Assembly: GCF_000955805.1 (NCBI RefSeq)
Contig: NZ_JYOA01000010.1
Coordinates: forward strand, 656,737-720,736
DNA from: Pseudomonas sp. 21
GTDB lineage: Bacteria; Pseudomonadota; Gammaproteobacteria; Pseudomonadales; Pseudomonadaceae
DNA: 64,000 nucleotides
Reading direction: 5' to 3'
Below, piece after piece: positions 17,606 through 40,637 of the stretch (position 1 is its first letter; each line of letters starts with the position of its first letter). A program made the position numbers and the translations under genes. The notes below the pieces were generated by a model. The model was given only the letters and a program-made list of their open reading frames with translations, was not told where the DNA came from and made no database searches.

Positions 17606-18658
17606 ATGAAGTTGAATGCCCTGCGTCACGGCCTTGCCGGTTTGTCCCTCGCCCTGCTGACCGCGGGCGTTGCCCAGGCCGAGGAGCCCAAGCAGCTGTT
17701 CTTCTACAACTGGACCGACTACTACCCGGTGGAACTGCTGGCCAAGTTCGAGAAGGAGACCGGCATCAAGGTCACCATGGACGGCTACGACAGTAACGAA
17801 ACCCTGCTGGCGAAACTGCAGGCCGGCGGTGCGGCATACGACGTGATCGTGCCGTCGCATTCGATCATGCAGACACTGATCAACCAGGACCTGCTGCTGG
17901 AAATCGATACGCCCAAGCTGGCTAACTTCCAGTTCGTCAAACCGGCGTTCCGCGACCCGGGCTTCGACCCCGGCCGCAAGTACTCGGCGCCTTACCTGTG
18001 GGGCACCACCGGTTTCTCCTACGACAGCGCGCGGGTGCCGGGTGGCAAGCTGGACGATTCGTGGAAGGAGTTCTTCGAACCGCGTCCGGAGTTGCAGGGC
18101 CAGGTCGCCGCGCTGGATACCCCGAGCAGCCTGATCAATGCCGCCGCGCATTACCTCAATGTCGACGAGTGCACCGAGAACCCGCAGGACGCCAAGAAGA
18201 TCCTCGAGCTGCTGCAGAAGCAGAAGCCCTTCCTGAAGATGTACAGCTCGGACAACACCGTGGACCGCATGGCCTCCGGCGAAGTCGTGCTGATGCAGAA
18301 CTGGAACGGCTCCACCGCCCGCGCCACGCTGCAGAAAAGCACCATCAAGTACGTCTACCCGCGCGAGGGCGTGGCCTCCTTCCAGGACAACTTCGCCGTG
18401 CCGAAAAGCGCACCACACCCGGAGAACGCCAAGGTCTTCATCAACTGGATGATGAAACCGGAAAACGCCGCCGCGGTGACCAACGCCATCGCCTATTCCA
18501 ATGGCATCCAGACCGACCAGTTGCTTGACGCCAAGTGGAAGGTCATGGACGCGATCAACATGCCCGAGGACTACGCACAGCGCCTGCGCCTGGAAAAGGA
18601 ATGCAGCAACAAATCCCGCGAGCTGCAGGACCGCATCTGGTCCAAGCTCAAGGGCTGA
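17606..18658 (+). CDS. Periplasmic binding protein, PotD/PotF family
   Basis: Substrate receptor of the importer, 350 residues, with a signal peptide cleaved after VAQA. The family signature follows at once: LFFYNWTDYYPVELLAKFEKETG. Late in the chain FINWMMKPENAAAVTNAIAYSNG matches the PotD fold. The amidohydrolases downstream suggest a ligand with amide or amino-heterocycle groups rather than a simple polyamine; that is inference. Confidence 0.9.
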   Translation: MKLNALRHGLAGLSLALLTAGVAQAEEPKQLFFYNWTDYYPVELLAKFEKETGIKVTMDGYDSNETLLAKLQAGGAAYDVIVPSHSIMQTLINQDLLLEIDTPKLANFQFVKPAFRDPGFDPGRKYSAPYLWGTTGFSYDSARVPGGKLDDSWKEFFEPRPELQGQVAALDTPSSLINAAAHYLNVDECTENPQDAKKILELLQKQKPFLKMYSSDNTVDRMASGEVVLMQNWNGSTARATLQKSTIKYVYPREGVASFQDNFAVPKSAPHPENAKVFINWMMKPENAAAVTNAIAYSNGIQTDQLLDAKWKVMDAINMPEDYAQRLRLEKECSNKSRELQDRIWSKLKG

Positions 18659-18861: not shown

Positions 18862-20061
18862 ATGACCGACAGCTACTGGCTGCGCAATATCCGTCCGTTG
18901 GGCAACGCCGCGGAAGACTTCCTCATTCGTGATGGCCGTATCGCCGAGCGCCGCCCGGCAAGCGGTGCCGACATCCAGCCAGGCGACATCGACGGCGCCG
19001 GCCAATTGCTCGTGCCGCCGCTGGTGGAAAGCCACTGCCACCTGGACAAGACCCTCTGGGGCCAGCCCTGGCGCCCCAACAGCGCCGGTCCCACGCTCAA
19101 GGACTACATCGCCAACGAGCGCCGCGTGCTGCGCGAGATCGAAGCACCGATCTCCGAGCGTGCCGGCGCGCTGCTGGAGCAATGCATCGCCCGCGGCTCG
19201 CTGACCTTCCGCTGCCACGTCGACATCGATCCCGAGCTGGGCCTGCGCCACGTCGTCGCCATGCAGGCGCTGCGCGAGCGCTACGCCGACCTGATCGACA
19301 TGCAGTTCGTGGTCTTTCCGCAGACTGGCCTGGTCAGCCGCCCCGGCACCGCCGAACTGATGCGCGAAGCCATGCAACTGGGCGTGGAGAACGTCGGCGG
19401 CCTTGACCCCTGCGGCATCGATGACGACCCCATCGCCCAGCTGGACATCGTTTTCGGCCTCGCTGTGGAATTCGGTCGCGGCGTGGACATCCACCTGCAC
19501 GACAAGGGCGAGCTGGGTCTCTGGCAGATCGCCCGTATCGCCGATTACACCGAGCGCCACGGTCTGCAAGGCAAGGTCATGATCAGCCACGCCTACTGCC
19601 TGGGCATGGCGCCCTGGGAGCAGGTCGAGCCGCTGGCCGAGCGACTCTCCGAACTGGGCATTTCCCTGATGAGCTCCGCGCCCGCCGATACCCCGGTCCC
19701 GCCGTTCCTCGCCCTGCGCGAAGCCGGCGTCAACCTGTGCCTGGGCAGCGACGGCATCCGCGATGCCTGGTCGCCCATGGGCAACGGAGACATGCTCGAA
19801 CGCGCCATGTTCCTAGCCTTCCGCTTCGACCTGTGCAAGGACGACGACCTTGCTGCCGCGTTCGCTGCCGCCACCGCCAATGGCGCTCGCGCACTGGGGC
19901 GCGAGCCGGCGCGCATTGAAGTCGGCGCGCCGGCAGACTTCCTCCTGTTGCCGGTCCAGACCCTCGGCGAAGCCGTGGTTGCACGCCCGGCGCAGCGCCA
20001 GGTATTCAAGGCCGGCAGGCTGGTCGCCGAGCAGGGTCGCCTCGTGGAGTCGCGTTTGTGA
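18862..20061 (+). CDS. Amidohydrolase, cytosine deaminase-like
   Basis: A 399-residue metal-dependent amidohydrolase of the cytosine deaminase/AtzC type. Metal and catalytic residues are all present: HCHLDK at the first strand, HLHDKGE in the middle, SHAY, and the aspartate in GSDGIRDAW. It probably hydrolyses a C-N bond in a heterocyclic or amidine substrate brought in by the adjacent importer. GAGG precedes the ATG. Its stop overlaps the GTG start of the next gene. Confidence 0.85.
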   Translation: MTDSYWLRNIRPLGNAAEDFLIRDGRIAERRPASGADIQPGDIDGAGQLLVPPLVESHCHLDKTLWGQPWRPNSAGPTLKDYIANERRVLREIEAPISERAGALLEQCIARGSLTFRCHVDIDPELGLRHVVAMQALRERYADLIDMQFVVFPQTGLVSRPGTAELMREAMQLGVENVGGLDPCGIDDDPIAQLDIVFGLAVEFGRGVDIHLHDKGELGLWQIARIADYTERHGLQGKVMISHAYCLGMAPWEQVEPLAERLSELGISLMSSAPADTPVPPFLALREAGVNLCLGSDGIRDAWSPMGNGDMLERAMFLAFRFDLCKDDDLAAAFAAATANGARALGREPARIEVGAPADFLLLPVQTLGEAVVARPAQRQVFKAGRLVAEQGRLVESRL

Positions 20062-22240: not shown

Positions 22241-22994
22241 GAATTCCTTGCGGGCACGCTGGGAATTTAGGGGTGTGGCTGGATGCCGCACAGATTCGAC
22301 GAGGTAACTGAACCTTAAGGTTTCATTAAATTTCAGTAACTTCGTCGATATGTGTCTTATCCTGCTGGTTTTCTGGGGATCATCGGTGAACGACAGATTC
22401 TCCGAAAACGTGCTTCCCAGGCTGAATTTTGCGCTTCATGAAATATTTGCCGACGAACGCACAGTAATTTTCCCTACCTGTGAGCGTTTTCCGCAGCTTA
22501 TCATTGTGCCATCAATGGGAATTTTCCTACTTTTCCATTGTTGTTTTGATGTTTCACGAAATTGTCACATTGATGTGGCGCGCTTCGCTGTTTTCGGGAC
22601 GTAAGGGACTGCTTGACTGAAAACCCCTCCGTCTACGCCTGGTCGTCAACACCTGGGCGCCTCTCGAATCGGTTTAGCAGAATGGTGATCGGCAGCCTTG
22701 TTGCGGATCGTCATGCACGAGCTTTTGCCACCTTGTTCCTGTCTTGTCCGTCCGGCCTCCCGGGCGGCACCCGCAAGCTCGGGTACAGGCCAGGGCAACC
22801 AGCAGAGGTACATCTGCTTTGGCATTTGCAGAAGGATTTCGGCGCGTTTTGCGCTGAGGAATATGGGGTATCTCCGCCGGCCTGCTGAGGTCGTGCGGGA
22901 AACTTTGCCTTGAGTTCGACAACTCCGGAGCGCGCGAAATGCGCTTTCTACTGGAGCGGGATCGCTCGGCCTTGAAAAAGTGTGAGGGTGTGTT
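22241..22994. other. Long AT-richer leader upstream of the glycan export cluster
   Basis: About 754 bases with no convincing gene. The region 22260-22600 is clearly AT-richer than the flanks. It holds an imperfect 16-bp inverted repeat, CGACGAGGTAACTGAA (22297-22312) against TTCAGTAACTTCGTCG (22332-22347), around the palindrome CCTTAAGG. I expect promoter and control elements for the cluster. Open frames here (22350-22604 and 22613-22888) have no family resemblance and no good ribosome site. I see no JUMPstart/ops element. Confidence 0.55.
22297..22347. promoter_or_regulatory. Imperfect inverted repeat, possible operator
   Basis: Two 16-base arms pair at 14 of 16 positions, with CCTTAAGG as part of the loop. 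It lies about 650 bases before the first exporter gene and 57 bases after the flavin reductase stop. Without a T run it is not a standard terminator; a regulator site is the better guess. Confidence 0.35.
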
Positions 22995-23786
22995 GTGCGT
23001 TTGCAGCTAGGGGGAGGAAACGATATCTGGTCCGCTATCCAGATATCGGTAGAGCGAGCGCGCCTCGGACTGAAGTCCGAGTCGACGAGGACGCGCCTGG
23101 GCTTCGCCTGGTGGCTGATCGAGCCGCTGATCCTTCTCGTGATCTATTACACCGTGTTCGGCCATCTGCTGCGTATCCAGGTGGAGAACTTCGCCGTGTT
23201 CCTGATCATCGGCGTCACGTTCTGGACCTGGTTCAACAAGAGCGTGATGAACTGCACCGATGCCATCTACGAGAAGAAACACATTCTCGAGCATTGCAGG
23301 GTCGACCCGCTGATATTCCCGCTGACCTCGATCTTCAAGGACCTGGTCAAGGAGTCGCTGGTGGTCGCTCTGCTCCTGGGGCTGCTGTGCGTCATCGGCT
23401 TTACGCCGTCCTGGTTGTGGTTGTACCTGCCGCTGATCATGTTCGTGCAGATGATCATCACGGCCGGCTGCGGCGTCTTCGTCGCGGGCCTGACGCCATT
23501 CCTGCCGGATGTGCGCATCCTGATTTCCTCCGGGCTGCAGTTCCTGATGTTCGGATCGGGTGTGTTCTATTCCAAGGACAACATCCCGCCGCAGTTCCAT
23601 CTCCTGCTGGATCTCAATCCGCTGGCGCTGCTGCTTTCGCAGTATCGCGAGGTGCTGATGTACGGTCGCGCGCCCGTCCTCGGGGATCTCTTCGCTCTCT
23701 TCTGCGGCGCGCTGGCGCTGTTCGTGCTGGCCGTCCTGTTCGTTGCCGGCAACCGCAATTCCTATGCCATGGCGTTGAGCAAATGA
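22995..23786 (+). CDS. wzm: ABC-2 type polysaccharide export permease (Wzm/KpsM-like)
   Basis: Inner membrane channel subunit, 263 residues with six hydrophobic helices, of an ABC-2 exporter that moves a finished glycan across the inner membrane. TRLGFAWWLIEPLILLVIYYTVFGHLLRI near the N-terminus and GLQFLMFGSGVFYSKDNIP are family hallmarks. It starts with GTG behind GAGG; an in-frame stop lies just upstream. It overlaps the ATPase gene by four bases. The gene name is by family, not by orthology. Confidence 0.85.
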   Translation: MRLQLGGGNDIWSAIQISVERARLGLKSESTRTRLGFAWWLIEPLILLVIYYTVFGHLLRIQVENFAVFLIIGVTFWTWFNKSVMNCTDAIYEKKHILEHCRVDPLIFPLTSIFKDLVKESLVVALLLGLLCVIGFTPSWLWLYLPLIMFVQMIITAGCGVFVAGLTPFLPDVRILISSGLQFLMFGSGVFYSKDNIPPQFHLLLDLNPLALLLSQYREVLMYGRAPVLGDLFALFCGALALFVLAVLFVAGNRNSYAMALSK

Positions 23787-24484
23787 CCGAGGTTGCCGCA
23801 CTGACAGTCGACGGCCTGTCGCTGAACTTCCGCAACGGCCTGCGCCTGTTTTCCCGTCGCCAGACCATGGTGCTGCAGGACATCTCCTTCTCGGTCGCGC
23901 GTGGCGAGACCTTTGGCGTGGTGGGCGGCAATGGCGCCGGCAAGAGCACCCTGCTGCGCGTACTGGCGGGAATCTACCAGCCGACGCGTGGGCGCCTGGT
24001 TTCCTCGGTTGCGAGCGTCTCGCTGCTCAACCTGCAGCTGGGTTTCGACGACAACCTGGACGCGCGCGACAACATCGTGCTCAGCGGCATGCTGATGGGC
24101 ATGAGCCGCAGACGCATGCGCGAGCTGACCGCCGAGATTCTCGACTACGCCGAACTGGGCGGCTCGGCCGGGCTGCCGGTGCGCAGTTATTCCACGGGAA
24201 TGCGTGCCCGCCTGGGCTTCGCCATTTCCAAGTATTCGCGTCCCGACGTGATCCTGCTGGACGAGGTCCTGAGCGTCGGTGACGGGCATTTCCGCGAAAA
24301 GGCCGAGGCCACCATGCGCGAAATGCTTCAGGGCAATCAGACCGTGGTGTTCGTATCCCACGATTCAGGCCGTATCAGAGAGATGTGTAGTCGAGTGTGC
24401 TGGTTGAAGGACGGGCGCGTGCAGATGCTCGGCCCGGCCAACGAAGTCATGGACGCATACGACGAATTCATCCTGCGCAAGTGA
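23783..24484 (+). CDS. wzt: Polysaccharide export ABC ATPase (Wzt/KpsT-like, short form)
   Basis: ATPase partner of the Wzm-like permease, 233 residues. Walker A GGNGAGKST, signature YSTGMRARLGFA, Walker B VILLDEVLSVGD and switch histidine FVSHDSGRI are intact. The chain ends soon after the nucleotide-binding domain (YDEFILRK), so it lacks the C-terminal carbohydrate-binding domain of O9a-type Wzt, implying export without recognition of a terminal cap. ATGA overlap with wzm. Confidence 0.87.
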   Translation: MTEVAALTVDGLSLNFRNGLRLFSRRQTMVLQDISFSVARGETFGVVGGNGAGKSTLLRVLAGIYQPTRGRLVSSVASVSLLNLQLGFDDNLDARDNIVLSGMLMGMSRRRMRELTAEILDYAELGGSAGLPVRSYSTGMRARLGFAISKYSRPDVILLDEVLSVGDGHFREKAEATMREMLQGNQTVVFVSHDSGRIREMCSRVCWLKDGRVQMLGPANEVMDAYDEFILRK

Positions 24485-24495
24485 AGGAAAAGCAG

Positions 24496-25251
24496 ATGCT
24501 CAACATAGTAGTTCCCATGGCCGGCGCCGGTAGCCGTTTCGCGGTCGCAGGATACAAGTACCCCAAGCCGCTGATTCCGGTGCATGGCGTGCCGATGATC
24601 AAGGTGGTGATCGACAACCTCACGCCGGCTTGCGAGCACCGCTTCATCTTCATCTGCCAGGCGGCACACGTAGAAGCCTATGGTCTGCAGGAGAAGCTGC
24701 AGGCCTGGGCGCCGGGCTGCGCCATCGTCGAGCTCGACGGTCTCACCGAAGGCGCCGCCTGCACGGTGTACGCCGCCAGGGAACTGATCAACGCCGATGA
24801 CCCGGTGATGATCGCCAACAGCGACCAGTACGTGGACATCGACATCAATGACTACCTGCGCTCCATGGAAGAGCAGCAGGCGGACGGCCTGATCATGACC
24901 ATGAAGGCGGATGACCCGAAATGGTCCTTCGTCGGCTTCGACGATGCAGGTCGCATCGACCGTGTCATCGAGAAGGAAGTGATTTCCGACGAAGCCACCG
25001 TGGGCATCTACAACTTCCGCAGCGGCCGCGAGCTGATCGCCGCGATCGAGTCCATGTTCGACAAGAACCTGCGGGTGAACGGCGAATTCTACGTAGCACC
25101 GGCCTACAACGAGATGATCGGCGACGACGCCCGCATCGTGCACTACAGCATCGGTTCCGAAGGCGCTGGCATGTATGGCCTGGGCATTCCCGCGGACCTC
25201 GACCTGTTCCTCGGCCTGCCGGTCAGCCAGGCAGCCACGGCGGGTCGCTGA
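24496..25251 (+). CDS. Sugar-phosphate or alcohol-phosphate nucleotidyltransferase
   Basis: A 251-residue NTP transferase of Rossmann type. The active site is complete: nucleotide loop PMAGAGSRF, the lysine of YPKPLI, and the metal aspartate in ANSDQYVDID. It should activate a small phosphorylated molecule as an NDP or CMP derivative for the glycan cluster. Short length and closeness to a HAD and a GDPD-like gene suggest a non-sugar or modified substrate; not proven. Start has AAGGA before ATG. Confidence 0.82.
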   Translation: MLNIVVPMAGAGSRFAVAGYKYPKPLIPVHGVPMIKVVIDNLTPACEHRFIFICQAAHVEAYGLQEKLQAWAPGCAIVELDGLTEGAACTVYAARELINADDPVMIANSDQYVDIDINDYLRSMEEQQADGLIMTMKADDPKWSFVGFDDAGRIDRVIEKEVISDEATVGIYNFRSGRELIAAIESMFDKNLRVNGEFYVAPAYNEMIGDDARIVHYSIGSEGAGMYGLGIPADLDLFLGLPVSQAATAGR

Positions 25252-25253
25252 TC

Positions 25254-25871
25254 ATGCAGATCATCAGTCATCGCGGTTACTGGCTGGAGCGGTCCGAGCG
25301 CAACCTCAAGGTCGCCTTCGATCGCTCCTTCGACCTGGGATTCGGCACCGAGACCGACGTGCGCGACGTCGCTGGCCGGCTCGTCATTTCCCATGACATG
25401 CCCAACGGCGAAGAGATGTCCCTGGACGATCTGCTGCGGATCATGGCCGGGCGCAACCTGCCGCTGGCGATGAACATCAAGGCCGATGGCCTCTGCGAGC
25501 CGCTCAAGGCGACGTTCGAGGCCCACGGCCATAGCAACTGGTTCGTCTTCGACATGGCGGTGCCGGACATGCGCAGCTACCTCGCCAGCGGCGTCTGCAC
25601 CTATACGCGTCTGAGCGAGGTCGAGCCGGTCCCCGCGTGGCTGAAAGAATCCGATGGCATCTGGCTGGATAGCTTCGGCCGCGAGTGGTACTCGCGAGAC
25701 CAGCTGGCCGAGCTGCTGGCCGGTGGCAAGCAAGTCTGCGTCGTCTCCTCCGAGTTGCATGGTCGCGAGCAACTGCCGCTGTGGCAGCTGCTGGCCGAAT
25801 TCCAGGGTGCTGCGAATCTGACGCTGTGCACCGACCTGCCCGAATCCGCTCGCTCTTTCTTCAAGGAATGA
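25254..25871 (+). CDS. Glycerophosphodiester phosphodiesterase-like protein
   Basis: A 205-residue TIM-barrel protein starting MQIISHRGYW. It keeps the catalytic histidine-arginine (SHRG), the metal pair in GTETDVRD and the second histidine in ISHDMPNG, the pattern of GDPD/PLC-type phosphodiesterases. It is shorter than most and has no signal peptide, so it acts in the cytoplasm. In this operon it may trim or release a phosphodiester intermediate. It starts two bases after the nucleotidyltransferase stop. Confidence 0.75.
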   Translation: MQIISHRGYWLERSERNLKVAFDRSFDLGFGTETDVRDVAGRLVISHDMPNGEEMSLDDLLRIMAGRNLPLAMNIKADGLCEPLKATFEAHGHSNWFVFDMAVPDMRSYLASGVCTYTRLSEVEPVPAWLKESDGIWLDSFGREWYSRDQLAELLAGGKQVCVVSSELHGREQLPLWQLLAEFQGAANLTLCTDLPESARSFFKE

Positions 25872-25875
25872 TCTC

Positions 25876-26520
25876 ATGATCAAAGCTGTGATTTTCGACA
25901 TGGACGGTGTGCTGATCGAAGCGAAGGATTGGCACTACGAGGCTTTGAACAAGGCGCTCAACCTGTTTGGCCACACCATCAGCCGCCATGACCACCTGAC
26001 CACCTACGACGGGCTGCCGACCTCGCGCAAGCTCAACATGCTCAGCGTCGAGCATGACCTGCCGGTGGAACTGCACAACTTCATCAACGAGATGAAGCAG
26101 GCGTACACGATGGAAATCGTCTACTCGCAGTGCAAGCCCACCTTCAACCACCAGTACGCCCTGTCCTCGCTGAAGAACCGTGGCTACAAGCTGGCCGTGG
26201 CTTCCAACTCCATCCGCAACACCGTCGAGGTGATGATGGACAAGGCCCGCCTGGACCAGTACCTGGACCTGAAGCTGTCCAACGAGGACGTCAAGAGTCC
26301 CAAGCCCGCACCGGACATCTACACCAAGGCTATCCAGTCCTTCGGTCTGTCGCCCGATGAGTGCCTGATCGTCGAGGACAACGAGAACGGCATTCGTGCC
26401 GCCCGCGCTTCGGGAGCCCATGTGCTGGTCGTCGAGGACGTGGCCGACGTCAACCTGGACAACATCACCCGCCGCATCGAGCAGATCGAAGCACAGCGGC
26501 AAGAGCGGCTGGAGGCCTGA
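25876..26520 (+). CDS. HAD superfamily phosphatase (beta-phosphoglucomutase-like)
   Basis: A 214-residue haloacid dehalogenase-type hydrolase. Motif I is FDMDGVLIEA, motif II is VASNSIRNTV, the lysine is in SPKPAPDIY and the acidic motif is VEDNENGI. The cap is helical as in phosphoglycolate phosphatase and beta-phosphoglucomutase. It probably dephosphorylates or isomerises the precursor handled by the adjacent nucleotidyltransferases. It begins four bases after the preceding stop and ends two bases before the next start. Confidence 0.87.
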   Translation: MIKAVIFDMDGVLIEAKDWHYEALNKALNLFGHTISRHDHLTTYDGLPTSRKLNMLSVEHDLPVELHNFINEMKQAYTMEIVYSQCKPTFNHQYALSSLKNRGYKLAVASNSIRNTVEVMMDKARLDQYLDLKLSNEDVKSPKPAPDIYTKAIQSFGLSPDECLIVEDNENGIRAARASGAHVLVVEDVADVNLDNITRRIEQIEAQRQERLEA

Positions 26521-26522
26521 TC

Positions 26523-27254
26523 ATGCGCAAACTGAACATCGTACTGCTCGCCGGTGGCGAAGGTGCCTCGGTGAAGGCCGAAAGCAGCTACCCCGATTAC
26601 CTCTCCGAGCGTGACGGCATTCCTCTGATCCAGCACCTGGTGGAGAACTGTCTCGCCCTTGAGCCCGCGCGCATCATCTGCATGCTGCCCAAGGACGACG
26701 TCAGCAAGTACCACCTGCGCAACATGCTGCAGCAGATGACCCCGGTCGCCTCCGTACAGGCTGTCCAGGCACTGACCATGGGCGCTGCCTGCACCGCGCT
26801 GCTGGCAGCGGAAAGCATCGACAACGATGACGAGCTGCTGATCATCAACTGCAACGAGCTGCTCGACGGTTCGCTTCGCGACATCATCGGCGGCTTCCGC
26901 AACGACCAGTGCGACGCTGGCGTGGTGGTCTTCAAGTCCCTGCACCCGCGTTATTCCTTCGTGCGCATGAATGCCGAGGGCTACGTCACCGAGGCAGCCG
27001 AGAAGAACCCGATCAGCAACCACGCGGTGGCGGGTCTGTACTGGTTCGATCGTGGCGCGGTGTTCGTCGAGGCGGTGAAGGAAATGATCCGCAAGGACGC
27101 CAAGGTGAATGATGCCTTCTACATCGCTCCGGCGCTCAATGAGCTGGTGCTGCTGCACAAGAAGATCGGCACCTTCCGTGTCGAGCCCAGCCAGTACCAT
27201 CCGCTGAAGAACACCCATCAGCTGCACGCGTTCGAAACAGTAGGTGCCCGATGA
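26523..27254 (+). CDS. Degenerate nucleotidyltransferase-like protein
   Basis: A 243-residue protein that follows the fold of the nucleotidyltransferase at 24496 but lacks its active site. The loop reads LLAGGEGASVKAESSYPDYL, so the arginine and the PKPL lysine are gone, and the metal position reads INCNELLDGS in place of NSDQ. Fold-level matches persist, for example NPISNHAVAGLYWF and VNDAFYIAPALNELV. It may be a regulatory or scaffold subunit of the active enzyme, or bind a nucleotide sugar. It overlaps the cupin gene by four bases. Confidence 0.7.
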   Translation: MRKLNIVLLAGGEGASVKAESSYPDYLSERDGIPLIQHLVENCLALEPARIICMLPKDDVSKYHLRNMLQQMTPVASVQAVQALTMGAACTALLAAESIDNDDELLIINCNELLDGSLRDIIGGFRNDQCDAGVVVFKSLHPRYSFVRMNAEGYVTEAAEKNPISNHAVAGLYWFDRGAVFVEAVKEMIRKDAKVNDAFYIAPALNELVLLHKKIGTFRVEPSQYHPLKNTHQLHAFETVGAR

Positions 27255-27577
27255 ATTCCGCCAACCTGAAGGACATGGTCAAGGGCTGGTTCGTCGGTGG
27301 TTTCACCCCCACGGCATTCAGTACCCAGGCCTGCGAAGTCGCGGTCAAGCCCTATCAGGAAGGTGATGCCGAGGCCGCGCATTACCACAAGATCGCCACC
27401 GAGGTGACCCTGGTGCTCTCCGGCGAAGTCGAGATGTGCGGCAAGACCTGGGGCGCCGGCGAGATCATCGTGCTTGAGCCGGGGGACATCACGGCCTTCA
27501 AGGCGCTTTCCGATGCCGTCACCGTTGTGGTGAAGATTCCTGGTGCACTGAACGACAAGTATCTCGTAGAAGCATGA
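27251..27577 (+). CDS. Cupin domain protein
   Basis: A 108-residue single cupin barrel with motif 1 remnant AAHYHKIATEVTLVLSGEVEMCG and motif 2 LEPGDITAFKAL. Metal histidines are partly present (HYH). Family members in glycan clusters can be isomerases, epimerases or sugar-binding proteins; I cannot tell which. Tight coupling on both sides (ATGA overlaps with both neighbours). Confidence 0.8.
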   Translation: MNSANLKDMVKGWFVGGFTPTAFSTQACEVAVKPYQEGDAEAAHYHKIATEVTLVLSGEVEMCGKTWGAGEIIVLEPGDITAFKALSDAVTVVVKIPGALNDKYLVEA

Positions 27578-29349
27578 AGACGATTCAGCTCCAACATGAT
27601 GCGAAGCTGGGCTATCTGCTGCCCAAGCAGCTTCGCGCCATTCCCGCCGATCTGGACGTTACGCAAGACTGCGAGCAGTTGATCTCCTTCCGGGCTTTCA
27701 AGGACCGCAGTCCGAACGTCACGGTCAAGAAGGTGCATGCCGCGAAACGGCCGCTGGATATCTATGGGGCTGGCTCGTATTGCTTCTATGGGCTGCAGAG
27801 CGACTCGCCACTGGCGCCTTTGCTGTTATGGGATGCGGCGCATTTCCTGGAGGTCGGGAAGACCCTGACGCTGGTCGAGGATGTGCCGCAGGAAAGCTAT
27901 CTGGATCGCGATTACTTCACTGGGGCGCTGACCTGCGTCGAGCGCAGCCCGACCCGTGTCACCTACCGGAAAGTGGCCCGGTTGCCGGCAGAGGCCGATG
28001 ATGACCTCGATAGCTGGACCTTTGGCCTGCCGGTCGGCCCGGAAGATGCCACCGTGCTCAACGCCGTCGTGCAGCGCATTCTCGAACTGGATATCCCTAA
28101 CAAGGAAATCCTGCTCTGCGGTACACCCGGCAAGAACTTCCGTTACTTCGATCAAGTGCGCATCGTCGGTGAGGACATTACCGCGCCTCCCGTGCAGATC
28201 TGCAAAAAGAAGAATCGCCTGGCCCAGGAGGCTCGCTACAACAACCTGGTGATCCTGCACGACCGCGTGTTCCTGCCCAGTCATTTCGGCGAGATGGTTC
28301 GTCGCTTCGGCCCCCGTTATCCGCTGATGACGCTGCAGAGCCTGTTCTTCGATAACCGCGTCTGCCTGTACCCGCGTCGCTATTCCGATCTGGGCATGTC
28401 AGTGAGTGAAATGGGCGGCGGCATCAAAGGTCTGCATCGCACCAGTCAGAGTGCCGTCACTGTCGCACCGTCCACCTTCACCGAACTCGAGCGCTCGGGC
28501 TTCTGCTTCGCCAATCCGATCCGCTACAACAACGATATTTCCTACCCTACCGGCAGCCTCTATATCTGTCGCAAGGAGGTTTGGGAGTGTTGCCCGCTCG
28601 ATGAGTCGCTGTTGTGGGTCGAGTACGAAGATATCGAGCACGGCATCCGCAGTTCGAAACTCGGTGTTCCCACTCGCGTGAATCCGTATGGCATCACGCA
28701 GACGGTGACCTCGAGAGCAGTACTGGGATCCACGGCTTTCATCGAGACTGCCAATGGTTCGATCAAGTCTGCATCGCCCAACAATCTTTCGCTGTTGCCG
28801 AAGAAGCCCCTGCTGCGGATGACCACCGCCGCCGCACTGGCCAGGCTCCAGCAATTCGCCAGCAAGTACGTTACTGACGAAACGGCTGCCGCTATTCCCA
28901 CCGGGCTGAAGGAAATCAAAGCGCGGCGCTGGGTCGGACTGATCAGTACGCTGATACGGCATTCGTCGTTCCGTAATGACTTGGCTTCGGTCAGGCAGTT
29001 CATCAGTGATTTCGAAAAGCTGGTGCTGCTCGATCAGTTACCGGACGGCCTGCGCTTGGAGTATGAACAGCGGTTCCTCAAGGACCCTGCCGATGCCAAG
29101 CACAACTTCATCGTCGATTGCTGGCCTATCCGCAGCATGATCAAGCAACGCACGGTGCAGACCTGGTTCTTCGAGAGCCCGCAGGAATACTTCCACAATC
29201 GCTCCCTGTCTCTGCCGGGGGTGTTGTTGTCCGCCTTGTCGCTGTACCGGAACAACGGGAAGTTCTTCTACTTCACCAGCTTCAGGGAGTGCTTGCGCAG
29301 CATCCACAACTCGACGCCCTTTGATCGTTATGCCAGGACCGAACCGTGA
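27574..29349 (+). CDS. Large protein with a GT-A-like glycosyltransferase region
   Basis: 591 residues, no membrane segment or signal peptide. Residues about 1-165 form an N-terminal domain I do not recognise (KRPLDIYGAGSYCFYG, LDRDYFTGALTCVE). Residues about 190-390 look like a GT-A transferase: RYNNLVILHDRVFLPSHF resembles a metal-binding centre and LLWVEYEDIEHGIR resembles the ED acceptor motif of GT2 enzymes. The last 200 residues are helical and unknown. I would call it a probable glycosyltransferase of an unusual type. Confidence 0.55.
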   Translation: MKTIQLQHDAKLGYLLPKQLRAIPADLDVTQDCEQLISFRAFKDRSPNVTVKKVHAAKRPLDIYGAGSYCFYGLQSDSPLAPLLLWDAAHFLEVGKTLTLVEDVPQESYLDRDYFTGALTCVERSPTRVTYRKVARLPAEADDDLDSWTFGLPVGPEDATVLNAVVQRILELDIPNKEILLCGTPGKNFRYFDQVRIVGEDITAPPVQICKKKNRLAQEARYNNLVILHDRVFLPSHFGEMVRRFGPRYPLMTLQSLFFDNRVCLYPRRYSDLGMSVSEMGGGIKGLHRTSQSAVTVAPSTFTELERSGFCFANPIRYNNDISYPTGSLYICRKEVWECCPLDESLLWVEYEDIEHGIRSSKLGVPTRVNPYGITQTVTSRAVLGSTAFIETANGSIKSASPNNLSLLPKKPLLRMTTAAALARLQQFASKYVTDETAAAIPTGLKEIKARRWVGLISTLIRHSSFRNDLASVRQFISDFEKLVLLDQLPDGLRLEYEQRFLKDPADAKHNFIVDCWPIRSMIKQRTVQTWFFESPQEYFHNRSLSLPGVLLSALSLYRNNGKFFYFTSFRECLRSIHNSTPFDRYARTEP

Positions 29350-29966
29350 ACGTATTTGTAGTCGCTCGTGACGCTGGTCCGACGAATACCCGTGAGCTGG
29401 TGCAGATGCTGGACGCCATCCAGACGCAGAGTGCAGCCAGAAGCAGCATCGTTGCCGTGGACAGCTTCTACAACCTGCCGGTTGCCTCGGGGAGCGAGGG
29501 CGAATGCAGGGCCTTCCAGCTGGATGACTTCGTGCATGCGAAGGGCAGCATCACCGATGGCAAGGTCATTCTCGACACCAACCGAATTGCCGAACAGGTC
29601 GGTTCTGCCGATCAGGGCTGGCTGGTTGTCGACTTCGGTCAGCACCGACTTGAGACCGGCCAGGACTTCATTGCCAAGCTGGCGGCCTGCTTCTACATGT
29701 TGCCGCCAGCGCAGCAGCGGAAGCTGGCCTTCAGGGTCGCGCGCGTGCAGCTGCCGCTTTATCTGCGCGCCAGCAACGCGGCGTTTAATGTCCTGCCCGA
29801 AACACGAGGGGAGTCGTCTGGTTCGCTGCAGACCAACATGCTGTTCCTTTCTGCGGGCACCGAGAAATTCGTCGAGCGCCTTCCGCTGTTCAAGTTGCCC
29901 TTCGCGATGGTGCGTGCACTGGCAAGATTCGCCATGCGTCGACTCAGCAGGCGAAACGGGATTTAA
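29346..29966 (+). CDS. Unknown protein of the glycan cluster, 206 aa
   Basis: I do not recognise this family. The first 110 residues look alpha/beta (MNVFVVARDAGPTNTRELVQML; GWLVVDFGQH), suggesting a Rossmann-like or nucleoside-binding fold. The C-terminus is basic and has a hydrophobic stretch (LPLFKLPFAMVRALARFAMRRLSRR) that could sit at the membrane surface. It overlaps the preceding gene by four bases and precedes the Tat small subunit by 12. Confidence 0.55.
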   Translation: MNVFVVARDAGPTNTRELVQMLDAIQTQSAARSSIVAVDSFYNLPVASGSEGECRAFQLDDFVHAKGSITDGKVILDTNRIAEQVGSADQGWLVVDFGQHRLETGQDFIAKLAACFYMLPPAQQRKLAFRVARVQLPLYLRASNAAFNVLPETRGESSGSLQTNMLFLSAGTEKFVERLPLFKLPFAMVRALARFAMRRLSRRNGI

Positions 29967-29978
29967 GCGAGTACCGAA

Positions 29979-30299
29979 ATGGAAAATATAGGACGCAGAT
30001 CATTCGTTTCCGGGCTGTTGATTCTTTCCGGCGGACTTGCGGGCCACGCGATCACCAAGGTCGTGAGCAATGCCGATGCCCGTCGCTTCGATCCGCATAA
30101 TTTCGTCCTGAAAAACAAGCATCTGAATCTTCAGCTTGTTTCCCAGGAGATGCTGCTCAAGATCCTTTCGCGAAAAGTCACCGAGGCCGATCGCATGGCG
30201 CTGATGGGGCAGCTGATCAACCCCAACCGTCATCTCTTCGTTGCTGACGCCGCATCTCGCCAGCACGGTGTCCCCGGCTTCTTCCGAGTTTCAGAATAA
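29979..30299 (+). CDS. Small Tat-signal protein, likely subunit of the GMC oxidoreductase
   Basis: A 106-residue protein opening with a twin-arginine motif GRRSFVSG and a hydrophobic run LLILSGGLAGHAI. The mature part is short and helical (FVLKNKHLNLQLVSQEMLLKILSRKV). Small Tat subunits are known to carry a signal-less GMC dehydrogenase into the periplasm, as in gluconate and fructose dehydrogenases. The next gene, two bases on, is a GMC enzyme without a signal. The pairing is inference from position and architecture. Confidence 0.65.
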   Translation: MENIGRRSFVSGLLILSGGLAGHAITKVVSNADARRFDPHNFVLKNKHLNLQLVSQEMLLKILSRKVTEADRMALMGQLINPNRHLFVADAASRQHGVPGFFRVSE

Positions 30300-30301
30300 A
30301 C

Positions 30302-31789
30302 ATGTTTGTCGATACCCTGATCATCGGTAATGGTTTCGCTGGCCGCGCAGTTGCCAGCGAACTGGATGGCGACGTGCTGATTGTCGAGCGCGGCGAGAAG
30401 TTCAATATTTTCGAACGGCGCCAGGCCTTCGACCAGCGTTTGAAGAAGGAGGGGTTTGATCGCCATTTCGCCAAGATTCGCGATGCGTATGCCTCGGCCC
30501 TTCCGTTCAACAAGCCCGAAAAGATCGGCAAGGACTGTTGGTCGGAGTACATCCTGGTCGATGGGGGCTGCTCGAATCACTGGGGGGGCTTGAGCTTCCG
30601 GCTCAGCGAGAATGTCTTTGCCGACCGCGCAGGGGCTTTCGCCTGGCCGTTCAGCATGGCTGAGATGAAACCCTTCTATGACAAGGCCGAAGGACTGCTG
30701 CGCATCTGCGCCGACCCGCAGGACCCCGACGGGCGTAATGCACGTGCGGCCATCAAGGGCGTCAGCAAATGGCGGAAGGAACTCGAACCGTACTTCCCCG
30801 CCGCCTACATCGGCGCTCAGTCGCACAACCTCACCGGAGATAACTCCAATGGCCAGGGCTCCTGCATGGGGGCCGGGGATTGCGAGCTTTGTCCGATGGA
30901 CGCCAAGACTCGGTCCCTGCATCTGCGCACCGATACCCGTGTACTCAATGGGGTAATGGTCGACTCCCTGCGCTTCGAGAATGGCAAGGCTGTGGAGGCG
31001 TTGTGCACGACGGAGTCGGGGCCGCTCAGCATCGGCTTCAATCGCGTGGTCGTGGCTGCCCATGGTGTCGAATCGATGAAGCTGCTGCTGCGCAGCAATT
31101 TACCGGAGAGTACCCCGGCGCATCTGATGGGGCACCACTATCAGGATCACGCGATTGCCCAGGTCACCTGCATCCTGCCGGGATCGACATTGCCTTACCA
31201 CGAGCTCAGCACGGCTGCGCAGATCGTCATTCCGGAGTTGTCGGGCGAGCTTGAGGGTGTCGAGTACACCACCTTGGGGTTGATGACACCGGTAGGTGAT
31301 TGGGCTCTGAGCAATGCGATTGATCTGGAAAAGATCAACCAATGGGAGCTGGAAGGGGCCATTCGTGGTGTCGGATCGACGCTGGCGCTCTTCATCCTGC
31401 TGGAAATTCCGCCGGAGTGGGATGTCGCCATTGGTTACAAGGACGGCAAGATCTCGCTCGATAGCTCGGCCTATCACCGCAAGAAGGGTGTGTATGACCG
31501 GGTCGTGGAGGAGATCTATACCAAGATCGCGGCCGCCGGAGCCATCCCGCTCAAGTCGGGGGAGACAAGGCATTACAACAACTGGTTTGGCACCCACCAT
31601 CTGGTCGGGACGCTCGGCATGGGCAACGGGCCGCGTACCGTGGTCGATCCCGAGTTCAAGTTGCGCGGTGCGGACAATGTGTATGTCGTCGGCTCGGCGG
31701 TGTTCCCCCGTTGCGGTTCGCGCAACCCCACGGTCACTGTCGTTGCGCTGAGCTTGATGCTGGCTGACAAGCTCAACGGAAAAGTATGA
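30302..31789 (+). CDS. GMC family FAD-dependent oxidoreductase
   Basis: A 495-residue flavin oxidoreductase. The FAD Rossmann motif is IIGNGFAGRAVASEL near the N-terminus, a GGCSNHWGG flavin-contact segment follows, and the C-terminus carries the catalytic pair region THHLVGTLGMG and SRNPTVTVVAL. CMGAGDCELCPMDAK contains three closely spaced cysteines. It likely oxidises an alcohol group on the glycan, its precursor or a pendant group. It overlaps the WavE-like gene by four bases. Confidence 0.85.
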   Translation: MFVDTLIIGNGFAGRAVASELDGDVLIVERGEKFNIFERRQAFDQRLKKEGFDRHFAKIRDAYASALPFNKPEKIGKDCWSEYILVDGGCSNHWGGLSFRLSENVFADRAGAFAWPFSMAEMKPFYDKAEGLLRICADPQDPDGRNARAAIKGVSKWRKELEPYFPAAYIGAQSHNLTGDNSNGQGSCMGAGDCELCPMDAKTRSLHLRTDTRVLNGVMVDSLRFENGKAVEALCTTESGPLSIGFNRVVVAAHGVESMKLLLRSNLPESTPAHLMGHHYQDHAIAQVTCILPGSTLPYHELSTAAQIVIPELSGELEGVEYTTLGLMTPVGDWALSNAIDLEKINQWELEGAIRGVGSTLALFILLEIPPEWDVAIGYKDGKISLDSSAYHRKKGVYDRVVEEIYTKIAAAGAIPLKSGETRHYNNWFGTHHLVGTLGMGNGPRTVVDPEFKLRGADNVYVVGSAVFPRCGSRNPTVTVVALSLMLADKLNGKV

Positions 31790-32790
31790 GTATCACCTCC
31801 CGGCAACTGACCGTTCTGCTCCAGGGGCCGTTGTCCGACCGTGGGGTGGATATTGCCGGGCGCGCCATCGAGTCGGTGCGCCGTTGCCTGCCCGAAGCAC
31901 AGATCGTGTTGTCGACGACCGATCTGGGCCGTCGGCCGGCCTACGACGGCGTTGTGTTCGTTGCTGATGGCTCTGCTTCGCACTTCGATGACGTCAATGG
32001 CAACGTCAATAACGTCAACAAGCTGATCTCGACCATGACCAATGGTCTGAAGCTGGTCGAGCGCGACTATTGCCTGAAGTTGCGAACGGACCATGTGATG
32101 CATAGCGACGCTGTGCTGTCGCGCATGGGGAATGGAGCCGACGCTGAGTTGTTCGACGAGCGCATCGGGGTTTCCAACCTTTTCCTGCGCAACCCCTGCA
32201 AGGTTCCCTACCTGTTCCATCTGACCGACACCGTACAGTTCGGGCGCACGCAAGATCTTCGCAAACTCTGGGATGTCAGCCAGCTGTCGGAGAGTTTCGT
32301 TCTCAGAGCGGCGGGGCCGCGGACCAACCCGCTAGGGACATTCCAGGGCTACACCTCTTTCCGACTCTTGCCGGAACAGGCGCTGTTTCTGCACTTTGCC
32401 CAGCGCAATGGCCTCGATCTCGATCTGGAGCATATCTCCCATACCAGCTTCCGGTTGTTCAGCGCCTGGGAAGATCTGCTGGTGGACAACTTCGAGCTCC
32501 ACGACTGGCAGAACCTCGGCATCGAACCACCTGGCCGCTTTCTCAGCGCCCCCTACATTCCAGGCTCGGTGATGACTGAAGAGGACCAGCAGGTGCTGCG
32601 CACGCAACGCTCCTCGCTGCAGAAGGCGCTTCGTTACTCGGACCTGCTGATCAACAAGTATCTTCTGTGCTGGTTTCGTCCGCGCTGGCTGGTATCGGTT
32701 GCGTCGCTCCTGCTTTTTTCGCTTTCGTCCGGAGCGGCACTGGCGGTCAGGGGCTTCTATCGCCGCGTGAATGGTGCGGGGCGGGCGTGA
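31786..32790 (+). CDS. WavE-family lipopolysaccharide synthesis protein
   Basis: A 334-residue putative glycosyltransferase of the WavE type, first seen in Vibrio LPS core clusters. The pattern LTVLLQGPL, then NNVNKLISTMTNGLKLVERDYCLKLRTDHVM (with the RTD acid), fits the family. The C-terminal 40 residues contain a hydrophobic segment (LVSVASLLLFSLSSGAALAV) that may anchor it to the inner membrane. GC content looks a little lower than in flanking core genes. Confidence 0.75.
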   Translation: MSITSRQLTVLLQGPLSDRGVDIAGRAIESVRRCLPEAQIVLSTTDLGRRPAYDGVVFVADGSASHFDDVNGNVNNVNKLISTMTNGLKLVERDYCLKLRTDHVMHSDAVLSRMGNGADAELFDERIGVSNLFLRNPCKVPYLFHLTDTVQFGRTQDLRKLWDVSQLSESFVLRAAGPRTNPLGTFQGYTSFRLLPEQALFLHFAQRNGLDLDLEHISHTSFRLFSAWEDLLVDNFELHDWQNLGIEPPGRFLSAPYIPGSVMTEEDQQVLRTQRSSLQKALRYSDLLINKYLLCWFRPRWLVSVASLLLFSLSSGAALAVRGFYRRVNGAGRA

Positions 32791-32875
32791 TGTTCTTCGG
32801 TTCGGGAAGCGCTCATCCCCCTTGCGCGTCGGCAGTCGGGCAGCAGCCATCCTGTGCAAGCGGGATGGGATCGCG

Positions 32876-33982
32876 ATGAAGGTCCTGCACTTCTACAAGA
32901 CCTTCGGTCTGGAACAATACGGCGGTGTCGAAATGTTCATTCGACACCTGACCCACGCCACCGCGATCCAGGGCTGCCAGAACACTGTGCTGTCGCTCGC
33001 GAAGGAGCCGATGAAGCCGGTTACAACGTCCAGCTTCCGGCTGGTCCAGGCCAGGCAGGATCTGCATATCGCGTCGACTGGGTTTTCCTGGTCCTCGCTG
33101 GGCGCGTTTGCGCGCCTGGCTGAGCAGGCCGATGTCATTCACTACCATTTCCCATGGCCTTTCATGGATCTCGTCCATCTCCTCAAGGGGCTGGGCAAGC
33201 CGAGTGTGGTGACCTACCACTCCGACATCGTCCGGCAGAAGGTGCTGCTGCAACTCTATCGCCCGCTGATGCGGGCGTTCCTGGGGCGGGTGGATTCGAT
33301 TGCGGCCACCAGCCCCAATTACCTGGAGAGCTCCTCCGTTCTGAAGCGCTACGAGGACAAGGCCTGTGCGATTCCCATCGGCCTGGAGCAGGACCTTTAT
33401 CCACGCCCGGATGTCACCGAGGTCGCTCGATTGCACCGTCAGTTCGGCGAGCGCTTTTTCCTCTTCGTGGGCGTGCTGCGCTACTACAAGGGCCTGCACT
33501 ACCTGCTCGAAGCGATGAAGTCAGCTCCCTGGCCACTGCTGATCGTCGGTGCCGGACCGATGGAGCAGGAGCTCATGCAGATGGCCAAAGAGCAAGGTCT
33601 GCAAAACGTGCATTTCCTGGGGCAGGTCAGCGAGCAGGCGAAGATCGACCTAATGTGGGCTTGCTACGGCGTGATCTTCCCCTCGCACCTGCGCTCCGAA
33701 GCCTTCGGCATCGGCCTGCTGGAAGGGGCGATGCTGGGCAAGCCGCTGATCTGCAGCGAGATCGGCACCGGCACCAGTTTCATCAACCAGCATGAGGAGA
33801 CTGGCATCGTCGTACCGCCAGCGGATGCCGCCGCGTTACGCCATGCCATGCAGACGCTGTGGGACGACACGGCCCTGGCGGAGCGTTATGGACGCGCCGC
33901 GCGGGAGCGGTTCCTGAGCACCTTCACCGCCAGGGGGATGGGGGAGGCTTATAGCCAGCTCTATGCCCGGGTGGCTGGCTGA
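32876..33982 (+). CDS. Glycosyltransferase family 4
   Basis: A 368-residue GT-B enzyme, the last gene of the glycan cluster. N-terminal acceptor domain starts MKVLHFYKTFGLEQYGGVEMFI; the donor domain has FVGVLRYYKGLHYLLEA and the E-x7-E motif in SEAFGIGLLEGAMLGKP. It resembles mannosyl- and rhamnosyltransferases of Pseudomonas polysaccharide clusters, but the donor sugar cannot be set from sequence. An 85-base gap separates it from the WavE-like gene, the largest inside the cluster. A terminator follows directly. Confidence 0.87.
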   Translation: MKVLHFYKTFGLEQYGGVEMFIRHLTHATAIQGCQNTVLSLAKEPMKPVTTSSFRLVQARQDLHIASTGFSWSSLGAFARLAEQADVIHYHFPWPFMDLVHLLKGLGKPSVVTYHSDIVRQKVLLQLYRPLMRAFLGRVDSIAATSPNYLESSSVLKRYEDKACAIPIGLEQDLYPRPDVTEVARLHRQFGERFFLFVGVLRYYKGLHYLLEAMKSAPWPLLIVGAGPMEQELMQMAKEQGLQNVHFLGQVSEQAKIDLMWACYGVIFPSHLRSEAFGIGLLEGAMLGKPLICSEIGTGTSFINQHEETGIVVPPADAAALRHAMQTLWDDTALAERYGRAARERFLSTFTARGMGEAYSQLYARVAG

Positions 33983-33997
33983 CAGGCTGACCGAAAG

Positions 33998-34028
33998 AAA
34001 AACGCCCGGCTTCCTGCCGGGCGTTTTC
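33998..34028. terminator. Bidirectional intrinsic terminator
   Basis: Stem AACGCCCGGC-TTCCT-GCCGGGCGTT flanked by A and T runs, between the convergent GT4 and APC permease genes; it can end both transcripts. Confidence 0.88.
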
Positions 34029-40279: not shown

Positions 40280-40637
40280 TGGTGGAGCCGGGGGGATTTG
40301 AACCCCCGTCCGCCAGTTCTCCGCTGTCGGTTCTACATGCTTAGCCATCTCTATTAGGTTAACTCCTCGCGGCCCGAGTGGCAGGGCGCTTGGAGCGAGC
40401 TGTATGAGTTTTAGCCGTTACGTCTACAGCGAACTTGGCGGCGATCCTGTTCTATATGACAGACCTAATCTTCGGGTTTACAGGCATCCCCTAGGGTCTG
40501 CTAGCGGCACTTAGGCTGCTAGGGCGTAGTTGTCGTCGTTGGCAACTATAAAGTTGTGGCAGCTGATTTACGAGAACTGTCACCTACTCGGCATGCCCCT
40601 CGAGTTTTGTTACCGGCGTCGAATCCTAATCGGCCCC
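40280..40637 (-). ncRNA. ssrA: Transfer-messenger RNA (tmRNA)
   Basis: The gene is about 358 bases. Its 5' end reads GGGGCCGATTAGGATTCGAC and its 3' end CCCCCGGCTCCACCA, the tRNA-Ala-like acceptor with encoded CCA. The resume codon region on the minus strand (40543-40511) encodes ANDDNYALAA then TAA, the Pseudomonas degradation tag. tmRNA with SmpB frees stalled ribosomes. SmpB is encoded 15 kb downstream in this window. A TACAAT box at 40666-40661 could start a precursor with a short 5' leader. Confidence 0.97.

Follow-up and report, generated by a model that had tools for sequence, protein, structure and literature searches.

A Pseudomonas operon for a probable ABC-exported surface polysaccharide with an exchangeable tailoring slot

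What product is made by an operon that joins an ABC exporter to an unusual set of enzymes, and what does a predicted redox pair do within it? The question is raised by a 13-gene locus of Pseudomonas sp. 21 (assembly GCF_000955805.1; genome of 6.33 Mb, here G000, contig 2), located at positions 22995–33982 of the window, i.e., the whole stretch of DNA analyzed, 64,000 nucleotides of contig NZ_JYOA01000010.1 (positions 656,737 to 720,736, forward strand). In what follows, loci and genomes are numbered with L and G, respectively. An original prediction, made from the letters of the window, had proposed an ABC-exported surface glycan system.

The locus probably directs the synthesis of a serotype-like, ABC-exported surface polysaccharide, with a tailoring slot that would serve either periplasmic oxidation or cytoplasmic sulfation. 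Four layers can be distinguished: the Wzm/Wzt exporter; a constant donor module; a variable glycosyltransferase-like centre, with a 591-residue protein and WavE; and the slot preceding wavE. Two aspects go beyond the original prediction: the GMC oxidoreductase pair appears as one of two interchangeable tailoring cassettes, and the donor module extends more widely than the locus.

Organization of the locus

Thirteen open reading frames, all on the plus strand, were found within 22995–33982, as previously described. They encode, in this order, Wzm, Wzt, a nucleotidyltransferase (NT1), a glycerophosphodiesterase-like (GDPD-like) protein, a HAD enzyme, a second nucleotidyltransferase homologue (NT2), a cupin, proteins of 591 and 206 residues, a small protein of the twin-arginine translocation (Tat) type, a GMC dehydrogenase, WavE and a GT4 enzyme. 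The 13 genes form one compact operon, with a GC content below that of its surroundings (60.3% versus 63.9–67.8% in the rest of the window, from 62 overlapping stretches as long as the block). Eight of the twelve junctions are 4-base overlaps (five) or 2-base gaps (three), so that the seven counted earlier were slightly low, and the count rises to nine if nt1 starts at the GTG at 24481. A codon-usage gene finder called 12 of the 13 genes, dropping the 106-residue Tat gene; these calls are not independent evidence, because the training set included those same 12 genes. The Tat gene is backed by tblastn matches in 10/10 GMC-bearing loci.

Pfam confirmed ABC2_membrane, ABC_tran, two NTP_transferase proteins, HAD_2, GMC_oxred_C, WavE and GT4, and gave no match at E up to 1 for the GDPD-like, 591-, 206- and 106-residue proteins. 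The predicted lack of flippase and polymerase was borne out, as no Wzx or Wzy appeared above cut-off among the Pfam matches of the 13 proteins. The exporter consists of an ABC-2 permease of 263 amino acids (wzm, 22995–23786; ABC2_membrane, 1.3e-15) and an ABC ATPase of 233 amino acids (wzt, 23783–24484; ABC_tran, 5.2e-20, residues 31–162). The latter comprises the nucleotide-binding domain only, without C-terminal extension, in contrast to the 462-residue Wzt of the cluster of genome G019.

The donor module

The genes for NT1, GDPD-like protein, HAD enzyme, NT2 and cupin are considered here as the donor module. NT1 (24496–25251, or from 24481 with the alternative GTG start; NTP_transferase, 5e-13) displays GAGSR, PKPL and NSDQ. 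GxGSR, PKP and NSDQ-type motifs, which we take to be functional motifs of nucleotidyltransferases, were intact in 22/22 NT1 homologues examined (NCDQ in Ruegeria). NT2 (26523–27254; NTP_transferase, 4.9e-10) lacks all three, as do the homologues in 19/19 Pseudomonas cases examined, in agreement with the earlier description of two nucleotidyltransferases, one of them degenerate. The NT2 of Ruegeria retains more of the motifs, reading AKP and NADQ, and 17 Pseudomonas copies compared were 58–96% identical to that of the window. The claim that no NDP-sugar (nucleoside-diphosphate-sugar) pathway genes are present was too strong, because NT1 is an enzyme of the NDP-donor type with intact motifs. Its sole solved relative at E ≤ 1e-6, matched over nearly the whole protein (E 1.3e-17), is 4evw, an NDP-sugar pyrophosphorylase from Vibrio cholerae. 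In the NCBIfam search, run on 10 of the 13 proteins, every sugar-specific match of NT1 fell far below cut-off. As a separate observation, the nt1 gene of P. californiensis (L015:6930–7691) contains an in-frame stop at codon 3.

Most of the donor module recurs in alphaproteobacteria. In three of the five alphaproteobacterial plasmids translated (Azospirillum, Rhizobium rhizoryzae and Tropicibacter), NT2-like and NT1-like halves are fused in proteins of 494–537 residues, followed by a third nucleotidyltransferase homologue of 226–240 residues; in Ruegeria NT1 and NT2 are separate, and in Acetobacter a separate NT1 is accompanied by a 231-residue protein weakly similar to NT2. From synteny and fusion, we infer that NT2 could be a non-catalytic partner of NT1. 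Pairs of catalytic and non-catalytic nucleotidyltransferases exist, e.g., GMPPB/GMPPA, to which the present pair is likened by description, in that an active subunit goes with a motif-less homologue and both are fused in some relatives.

The GDPD-like protein (25254–25871, 205 amino acids) belongs to a family whose profile reaches the solved GDPD 3no3 at E 2.1e-4, and none of its 16 members examined matched the Pfam GDPD family at E up to 1. HRG, E33/D35 (ExD) and H47, presumably the catalytic core of the GDPD family, are invariant in 16/16 (alignment A2), and what we take to be the usual third acidic metal position reads Asn74. The HAD enzyme (25876–26520, 214 amino acids; HAD_2, 4.2e-35) is of the beta-phosphoglucomutase/phosphatase superfamily, and stayed below the cut-offs of the NCBIfam beta-phosphoglucomutase models (TIGR02009, 115 of 153 bits; TIGR01990, 92 of 189). 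The cupin (27251–27577, 108 amino acids) matched Cupin_2 below cut-off (1e-4) and a PHROG family at 1.6e-35.

These enzymes could also be read as the machinery for a teichoic-acid-like chain or a phosphodiester-linked polyol glycan. NT1 would then form a CDP-alcohol (CDP, cytidine diphosphate), the HAD enzyme would dephosphorylate the precursor, the GDPD-like protein would recycle or trim phosphodiesters, and the GMC enzyme would oxidize the alcohol. The poor fit of NT1 to the sugar-specific models and the presence in the core of a phosphodiesterase-fold protein with its invariant residues agree with this proposal, as does the fact that GMC enzymes oxidize alcohols. However, Pfam revealed no CDP-alcohol or glycerophosphotransferase family among the 13 proteins, and WavE, GT4 and the GT2-like 591-residue protein indicate ordinary glycosidic transfer. 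Such a product is considered unlikely, although it is the best placed of the alternatives to an ABC-exported polysaccharide with a tailoring slot.

Parts of the donor module were also met in phages. In the two cyanophages translated (S-CAM9 and B23), a HAD and an NT1-like domain are joined in one protein, and PHROGs holds a family related to the GDPD-like protein (E 1.1e-31), for which tblastn gave no match in phages at E ≤ 1e-3. The HAD::nucleotidyltransferase fusion of S-CAM9, S-8S55 and B23 (L040–L042) lies amid glycosyltransferase genes, and cyanophages SynMITS9220M01 and Bellamy encode a cupin relative with about 35% identity. A 150-residue protein of B23 looked GDPD-like by eye only and was discarded, as the A2 profile did not retrieve it.

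Distribution and variable parts

The search of other genomes for the same gene set, proposed with the original prediction, found the core order nt1-GDPD-HAD-nt2-cupin-591-206-wavE in 22/22 Pseudomonas loci, from genome contigs and from two plasmids (the 206-residue gene was not detectable in L028), and a rearranged cluster on a Scandinavium plasmid. Since the order is kept in all the Pseudomonas loci, it is not due to chance. The 591-residue protein occurs in 5/25 genus genomes, including that of the window, and a genome-collection scan with short peptides of it returned 15 loci, all from Pseudomonas. The GDPD-like profile matched at least 2/398 phylum genomes at E ≤ 1e-15, again with the window's included and with the best few candidates per genome scored. 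Among 72,556 plasmid records, NT1 had 27 matches and the GDPD-like protein 26, of which 14 of each were from Rhizobium, Sinorhizobium or Pseudorhizobium; among the matches are plasmids of P. aeruginosa PA83 and P. alcaligenes MRCP2, both from human sources, and of Scandinavium. In the PA83 plasmid (L033:7219–8945) an IS30 element is annotated where the P. alcaligenes plasmid has the permease gene, and the sole wzm match of this stretch is 29% (tblastn). In Scandinavium (L025:4139–13476/L044) the cluster adjoins a fimbrial operon as well as a gene of the O-antigen-ligase family, and the expected place of NT2 is taken by a 141-residue protein that resembles a truncated remnant (24% identity). 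When the ATPase-GDPD-HAD region of Scandinavium was used to search E. coli genomes at the DNA level, only ATPase fragments were recovered (4 records, 8% coverage).

In 5/25 genus genomes, that of the window included, the cluster occupies the same chromosomal site, whose flanking genes begin at window positions 20058/21554 and 34045. Two of the 25 (G016 and G019) have other Wzm/Wzt clusters there, of rml-type and gmd-type, respectively, with names given by eye and from their similarity to wzm/wzt of the window. The site is empty in nine genomes (G002, G005, G007, G008, G009, G010, G013, G021 and G022), because the flanks lie 0.1–1.6 kb apart. Of the other nine, eight have no left flank above threshold and in G024 the flanks are far apart. 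The original idea of a surface glycan that is exported by an ABC system and made by an unusual set of enzymes is supported, with the addition that the site also holds other Wzm/Wzt polysaccharide clusters. The end of the gmd-type cluster of G019 (L031:13632–16656) encodes a 533-residue aldolase-like protein, a KdsB-like and a HAD protein (names by eye), perhaps a further donor pathway.

Comparison of the clusters at this site separates constant from variable genes. With respect to the window, identities in G018, G020 and G023, respectively, were 95, 91 and 97% for NT1; 87, 88 and 94% for the GDPD-like protein; 98, 96 and 99.5% for HAD; 94, 92 and 96% for NT2; and 96, 95 and 95% for the cupin. 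The 591-residue protein gave 89, 70 and 39%, WavE 66, 69 and 63%, and GT4 88, 84 and 92%; the 206-residue protein gave 55 and 33% in G018 and G020, and its gene was not detectable in G023. In G006, which has the same cassette as the window, all the proteins listed were 97.5–100% identical. GT4 is present in 8 of the 22 loci, in which Wzm and Wzt, where present, are 75–100% identical to those of the window (in L006 the contig ends within wzm).

The variable centre of the window comprises the GT2-like 591-residue protein (27574–29349), with a central putative glycosyltransferase domain, the 206-residue protein (29346–29966), which is the least conserved core product (26–56% identity to 16 homologues), and the WavE-family glycosyltransferase-like protein (31786–32790, 334 amino acids; Pfam WavE, 1.5e-36), followed by the GT4 glycosyltransferase (32876–33982, 368 amino acids; Glycos_transf_1, 7.9e-31). 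Glyco_tranf_2_3 was matched by 7/19 members of the 591-residue family (best E 1.9e-4), but not by the window's own copy. The structure model of this protein was poor (predicted local distance difference test score, pLDDT, 62.8; predicted template modelling score, pTM, 0.36), and the structure search barely covered its putative transferase domain. A single Foldseek match at E ≤ 0.001, to RsmC (9e-4), and VIA-align Z scores up to 7.0 to methyltransferase folds, restricted to residues ~10–137, were taken as uninformative. The 206-residue model (pLDDT 75.9) reached a best Z of 7.5 and had no Foldseek match at E ≤ 0.001.

A second alternative is that the locus makes a glycolipid, or a short glycan destined for a protein or pilus, rather than an O-chain. 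It would find support in the Scandinavium cluster, with its adjoining fimbrial operon and O-antigen-ligase family protein (Wzy_C, Wzy_C_2), in the few transferases, and in the alphaproteobacterial modules, near which no ABC exporter is annotated. Against it, the Pseudomonas site is shared with ordinary Wzm/Wzt polysaccharide clusters, and at least a Wzt-type ATPase lies within the locus in 22/22 cases. It seems reasonable to hold this alternative as improbable, and to keep an exported polysaccharide as the preferred product.

The tailoring slot and its oxidoreductase

The slot between the 206-residue gene and wavE contained, among the 22 loci, Tat plus GMC genes in ten (the window, L029, L027, L007, L008, L011, L014, L017, L033 and L043), sulfotransferase-like plus APS (adenosine 5′-phosphosulfate) kinase genes in four (L026, L028, L006 and L010), and neither in eight (L009, L012, L013, L015, L016, L018, L019 and L020, with 71–159 bases between the 206-residue and wavE matches); no locus had both, as counted within the DNA stretch around each. 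The APS kinase is clear (PF01583, 3.2e-65 in L028) and adjoins the sulfotransferase-like gene in 4/4 loci. Its neighbour is read as a putative sulfotransferase on the basis of a weak Pfam match, a PRSGTT start seen by eye, and the adjoining kinase. Loci L010 and L014 have different cassettes; their identity is 91–98% from wzm to the cupin gene, and 81, 73 and 80% for the 591-residue protein, the 206-residue protein and WavE, respectively. On a tree of the 22 loci, built from NT1, GDPD, HAD, NT2 and cupin with one history assumed for the five genes, the sulfotransferase label needed four changes, all four forced by strongly supported branches, while the GMC label needed five and the label for neither cassette needed one. 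Pseudomonas sp. MF4836 harbors the system twice, in divergent copies, of which L006 (contig032) has the sulfation cassette and L011 (contig009) has Tat/GMC.

In the window the slot is occupied by the Tat small subunit (29979–30299, 106 amino acids), hitchhiker-like, and the GMC dehydrogenase (30302–31789, 495 amino acids; GMC_oxred_C, 2.7e-15), which agrees with the earlier assignment of a Tat small subunit with a GMC oxidoreductase. A twin arginine near the start of the small protein was present in 8/8 homologues examined. The nearest solved relatives of the GMC protein are the catalytic subunits of FAD-dependent glucose dehydrogenase (FAD-GDH; FAD, flavin adenine dinucleotide) 8hdd and 6a2u (E ~1e-13; ~54 bits). 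C188, C194, C197, H433 and N475 were invariant in 8/8 GMC proteins and aligned to the 3Fe-4S cysteines and the His/Asn positions of 8hdd. Cys212/218/222 of BcGDH are the 3Fe-4S ligands and His476/Asn519 the likely catalytic pair, and the FAD-GDH small subunit is a Tat hitchhiker required for secretion (PMC6719666). The oxidized residue put forward in the original prediction, but not the phosphoryl-linked group, gains support by inference, from the 3Fe-4S cysteines and His/Asn pair shared with the Burkholderia enzyme and from the hitchhiker-like Tat partner. The likeness to the gamma-alpha complex of B. cepacia FAD-GDH extends to the small Tat partner directly upstream; differences are the location here within a glycan operon, the limited similarity in bits and the lack of a cytochrome subunit gene in the locus.

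That the Tat/GMC pair might be an unrelated sugar or alcohol dehydrogenase, in the operon by chance, would suit the 12/22 Pseudomonas loci without it and the oxidation of free glucose by its relative FAD-GDH (PMC6719666), but it is the least probable of the alternatives, and quite improbable, given the same position of the pair in 10/22 loci, the 2-base gap from Tat to GMC gene and 4-base overlap of the latter with wavE in the window, and the mutual exclusion with the sulfation cassette at that position.

Proposed mechanism and its weight

With an ABC-exported polysaccharide as the preferred product, the following mechanism can be proposed. NT1 would transfer a nucleotidyl group to give one unusual activated building block, a sugar or an alcohol, with NT2 as its putative non-catalytic partner; the phosphorylated precursor would be prepared by the HAD, GDPD-like and cupin proteins. 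As their families suggest, the 591-residue protein, WavE and, in this strain, also GT4 would build the chain in the cytoplasm, on a lipid carrier, and the glycan would then reach the periplasm through Wzm/Wzt. The tailoring slot, whose contents are observed, may set the decoration. In Pseudomonas sp. 21 the Tat-exported GMC dehydrogenase would oxidize a hydroxyl of the exported glycan, with electrons passing via the Fe-S cluster; in sister loci the sulfotransferase-like protein and the kinase forming 3′-phosphoadenosine 5′-phosphosulfate (PAPS) would sulfate the glycan before it leaves the cytoplasm.

Several points weigh against this interpretation, which relies on sequence. The locus holds only 2–3 transferase-like proteins, GT4 being limited to 8/22 loci, and the 591- and 206-residue proteins obtained no confident fold from models. 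The 591-residue protein was found in only 5/298 family genomes (E ≤ 1e-20, the window's included). In the 14/22 loci without a GT4 match, Wzm and Wzt are only 22–29% and 34–40% identical to those of the window; as the two groups of loci differ in Wzm/Wzt and GT4, the exporter pair and GT4 are exchanged too, with the order from NT1 to WavE fixed, which places the exporter outside the strictly conserved part of the system. No ABC exporter is annotated within ~9–10 kb of the donor module in five alphaproteobacterial plasmids, of incomplete annotation, so the product of the module need not be an ABC-exported polymer. With respect to the cassettes, the sulfotransferase Pfam scan, which covered the L028 and L026 proteins, gave a match below cut-off for the former (E 5.4e-4; 20.7 of 27 bits) and none for the latter. 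The change count on the tree depends on the single history assumed, and the sulfotransferase loci are no more clustered on it than shuffled labels (500/500 as low); this non-clustering is predicted by repeated exchange, but would also arise by scattered chance. Concerning the oxidoreductase, the Tat protein had no detectable sequence match to the solved hitchhiker (gamma) subunit, and no three-haem cytochrome c beta subunit of the FAD-GDH type was found among the 13 locus proteins.

More tentatively, the system might represent a new strategy of serotype diversification around one glycan backbone. Its fixed slot would have repeatedly switched between a periplasmic FAD/Fe-S oxidoreductase, for respiratory oxidation of the exported polysaccharide, and a cytoplasmic sulfation cassette, and a widespread donor module with parts in cyanophages would feed the system. 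We regard this as possible but rather doubtful. If true, a Tat-exported Fe-S dehydrogenase oxidizing an exported polysaccharide would represent an unusual form of surface modification, and the repeated swap with the sulfation cassette would suggest selection on that position by phages, bacteriocins or hosts. The donor module spans Pseudomonas, rhizobia, roseobacters and acetic acid bacteria, besides its parts in cyanophages, and no assigned product of it was found in the searches made; the product of NT1/NT2, once solved, would aid the annotation of all the loci with this module.

Comparison with known systems

In having PF01061, PF00005, WavE and GT4 proteins in one locus, the operon conforms to ABC-dependent polysaccharide loci. 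A KpsC/S-dependent (group 2) capsule, linked to 3-deoxy-D-manno-oct-2-ulosonic acid, was ruled out, with no PF05159 match in the whole genome; the same profile matched 2/14 control genomes, E. coli among them. With respect to the C55-P initiating enzyme and WaaL-type ligase expected for an O-polysaccharide on lipid A-core, the genome encodes two PF00953 proteins and one PF04932 (Wzy_C, ligase-type) protein as candidates, and their presence, together with the lack of KpsC/S, fits a possible route to lipid A-core.

The common polysaccharide antigen (CPA) locus of P. syringae was first considered and then dropped after comparison with PMC12608077, which describes a Wzm/Wzt and transferase operon exchanged between strains by recombination. 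Like the CPA loci of P. aeruginosa and P. syringae, the present locus has Wzm/Wzt and transferases in one operon. Unlike them, it has an extra nucleotidyltransferase pair, GDPD-like, cupin and GMC/Tat genes and a Wzt without C-terminal extension, and no gmd/rmd or rml genes, expected for D-/L-rhamnan CPA, were found among the 13 proteins (Pfam, and NCBIfam on ten). The neighbours of the P. syringae-group loci studied here, with flank names assigned by eye, also differ from those of the CPA-region genes listed in that source, Psyr_0915 to Psyr_0933 (PMC12608077). Among the sulfated capsule clusters of marine bacteria, that of Vibrio sp. KMM 8419 is a locus for an ABC-exported polysaccharide that includes PAPS synthesis and sulfotransferase genes (PMC11641403); in the present system, the sulfation genes make up one alternative cassette for a fixed position, which in other loci is taken by a periplasmic-type oxidoreductase. 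No published description of the gene set was found in the open-access literature searched. The locus is of the ABC-exported polysaccharide kind, and its distinctive traits are the swap between oxidation and sulfation in one position and the combination of a nucleotidyltransferase pair with a GDPD-like protein, a HAD enzyme and a cupin.

Other observations

Five loci (L027:5351–5770, minus strand; L006, L007, L017 and L028) contain, in the gap between wavE and the GT4 gene, a gene for a ~140-residue protein, lipoprotein-like by eye; the corresponding 85-base gap of the window is without it. The operon is preceded by a leader of 754 bases (22241–22994, plus strand), a ~200-base stretch of which is common to four same-genus loci: identity was 95% (G006) and 83% (G023) over the full length, and 72–75% over 197 bases (G018 and G020). 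The leader contains no ops element, and no site of the sigma-70 type was reported for it. A terminator-like hairpin of 12 pairs follows the operon (33999–34027, plus strand); hairpins of this kind are no commoner in the region than in shuffles. Finally, a search of positions 18000–42000 with Rfam gave a transfer-messenger RNA gene as the sole match at gathering scores; this gene lies ~6 kb downstream of the operon (40280–40637, minus strand) and encodes the tag ANDDNYALAA.

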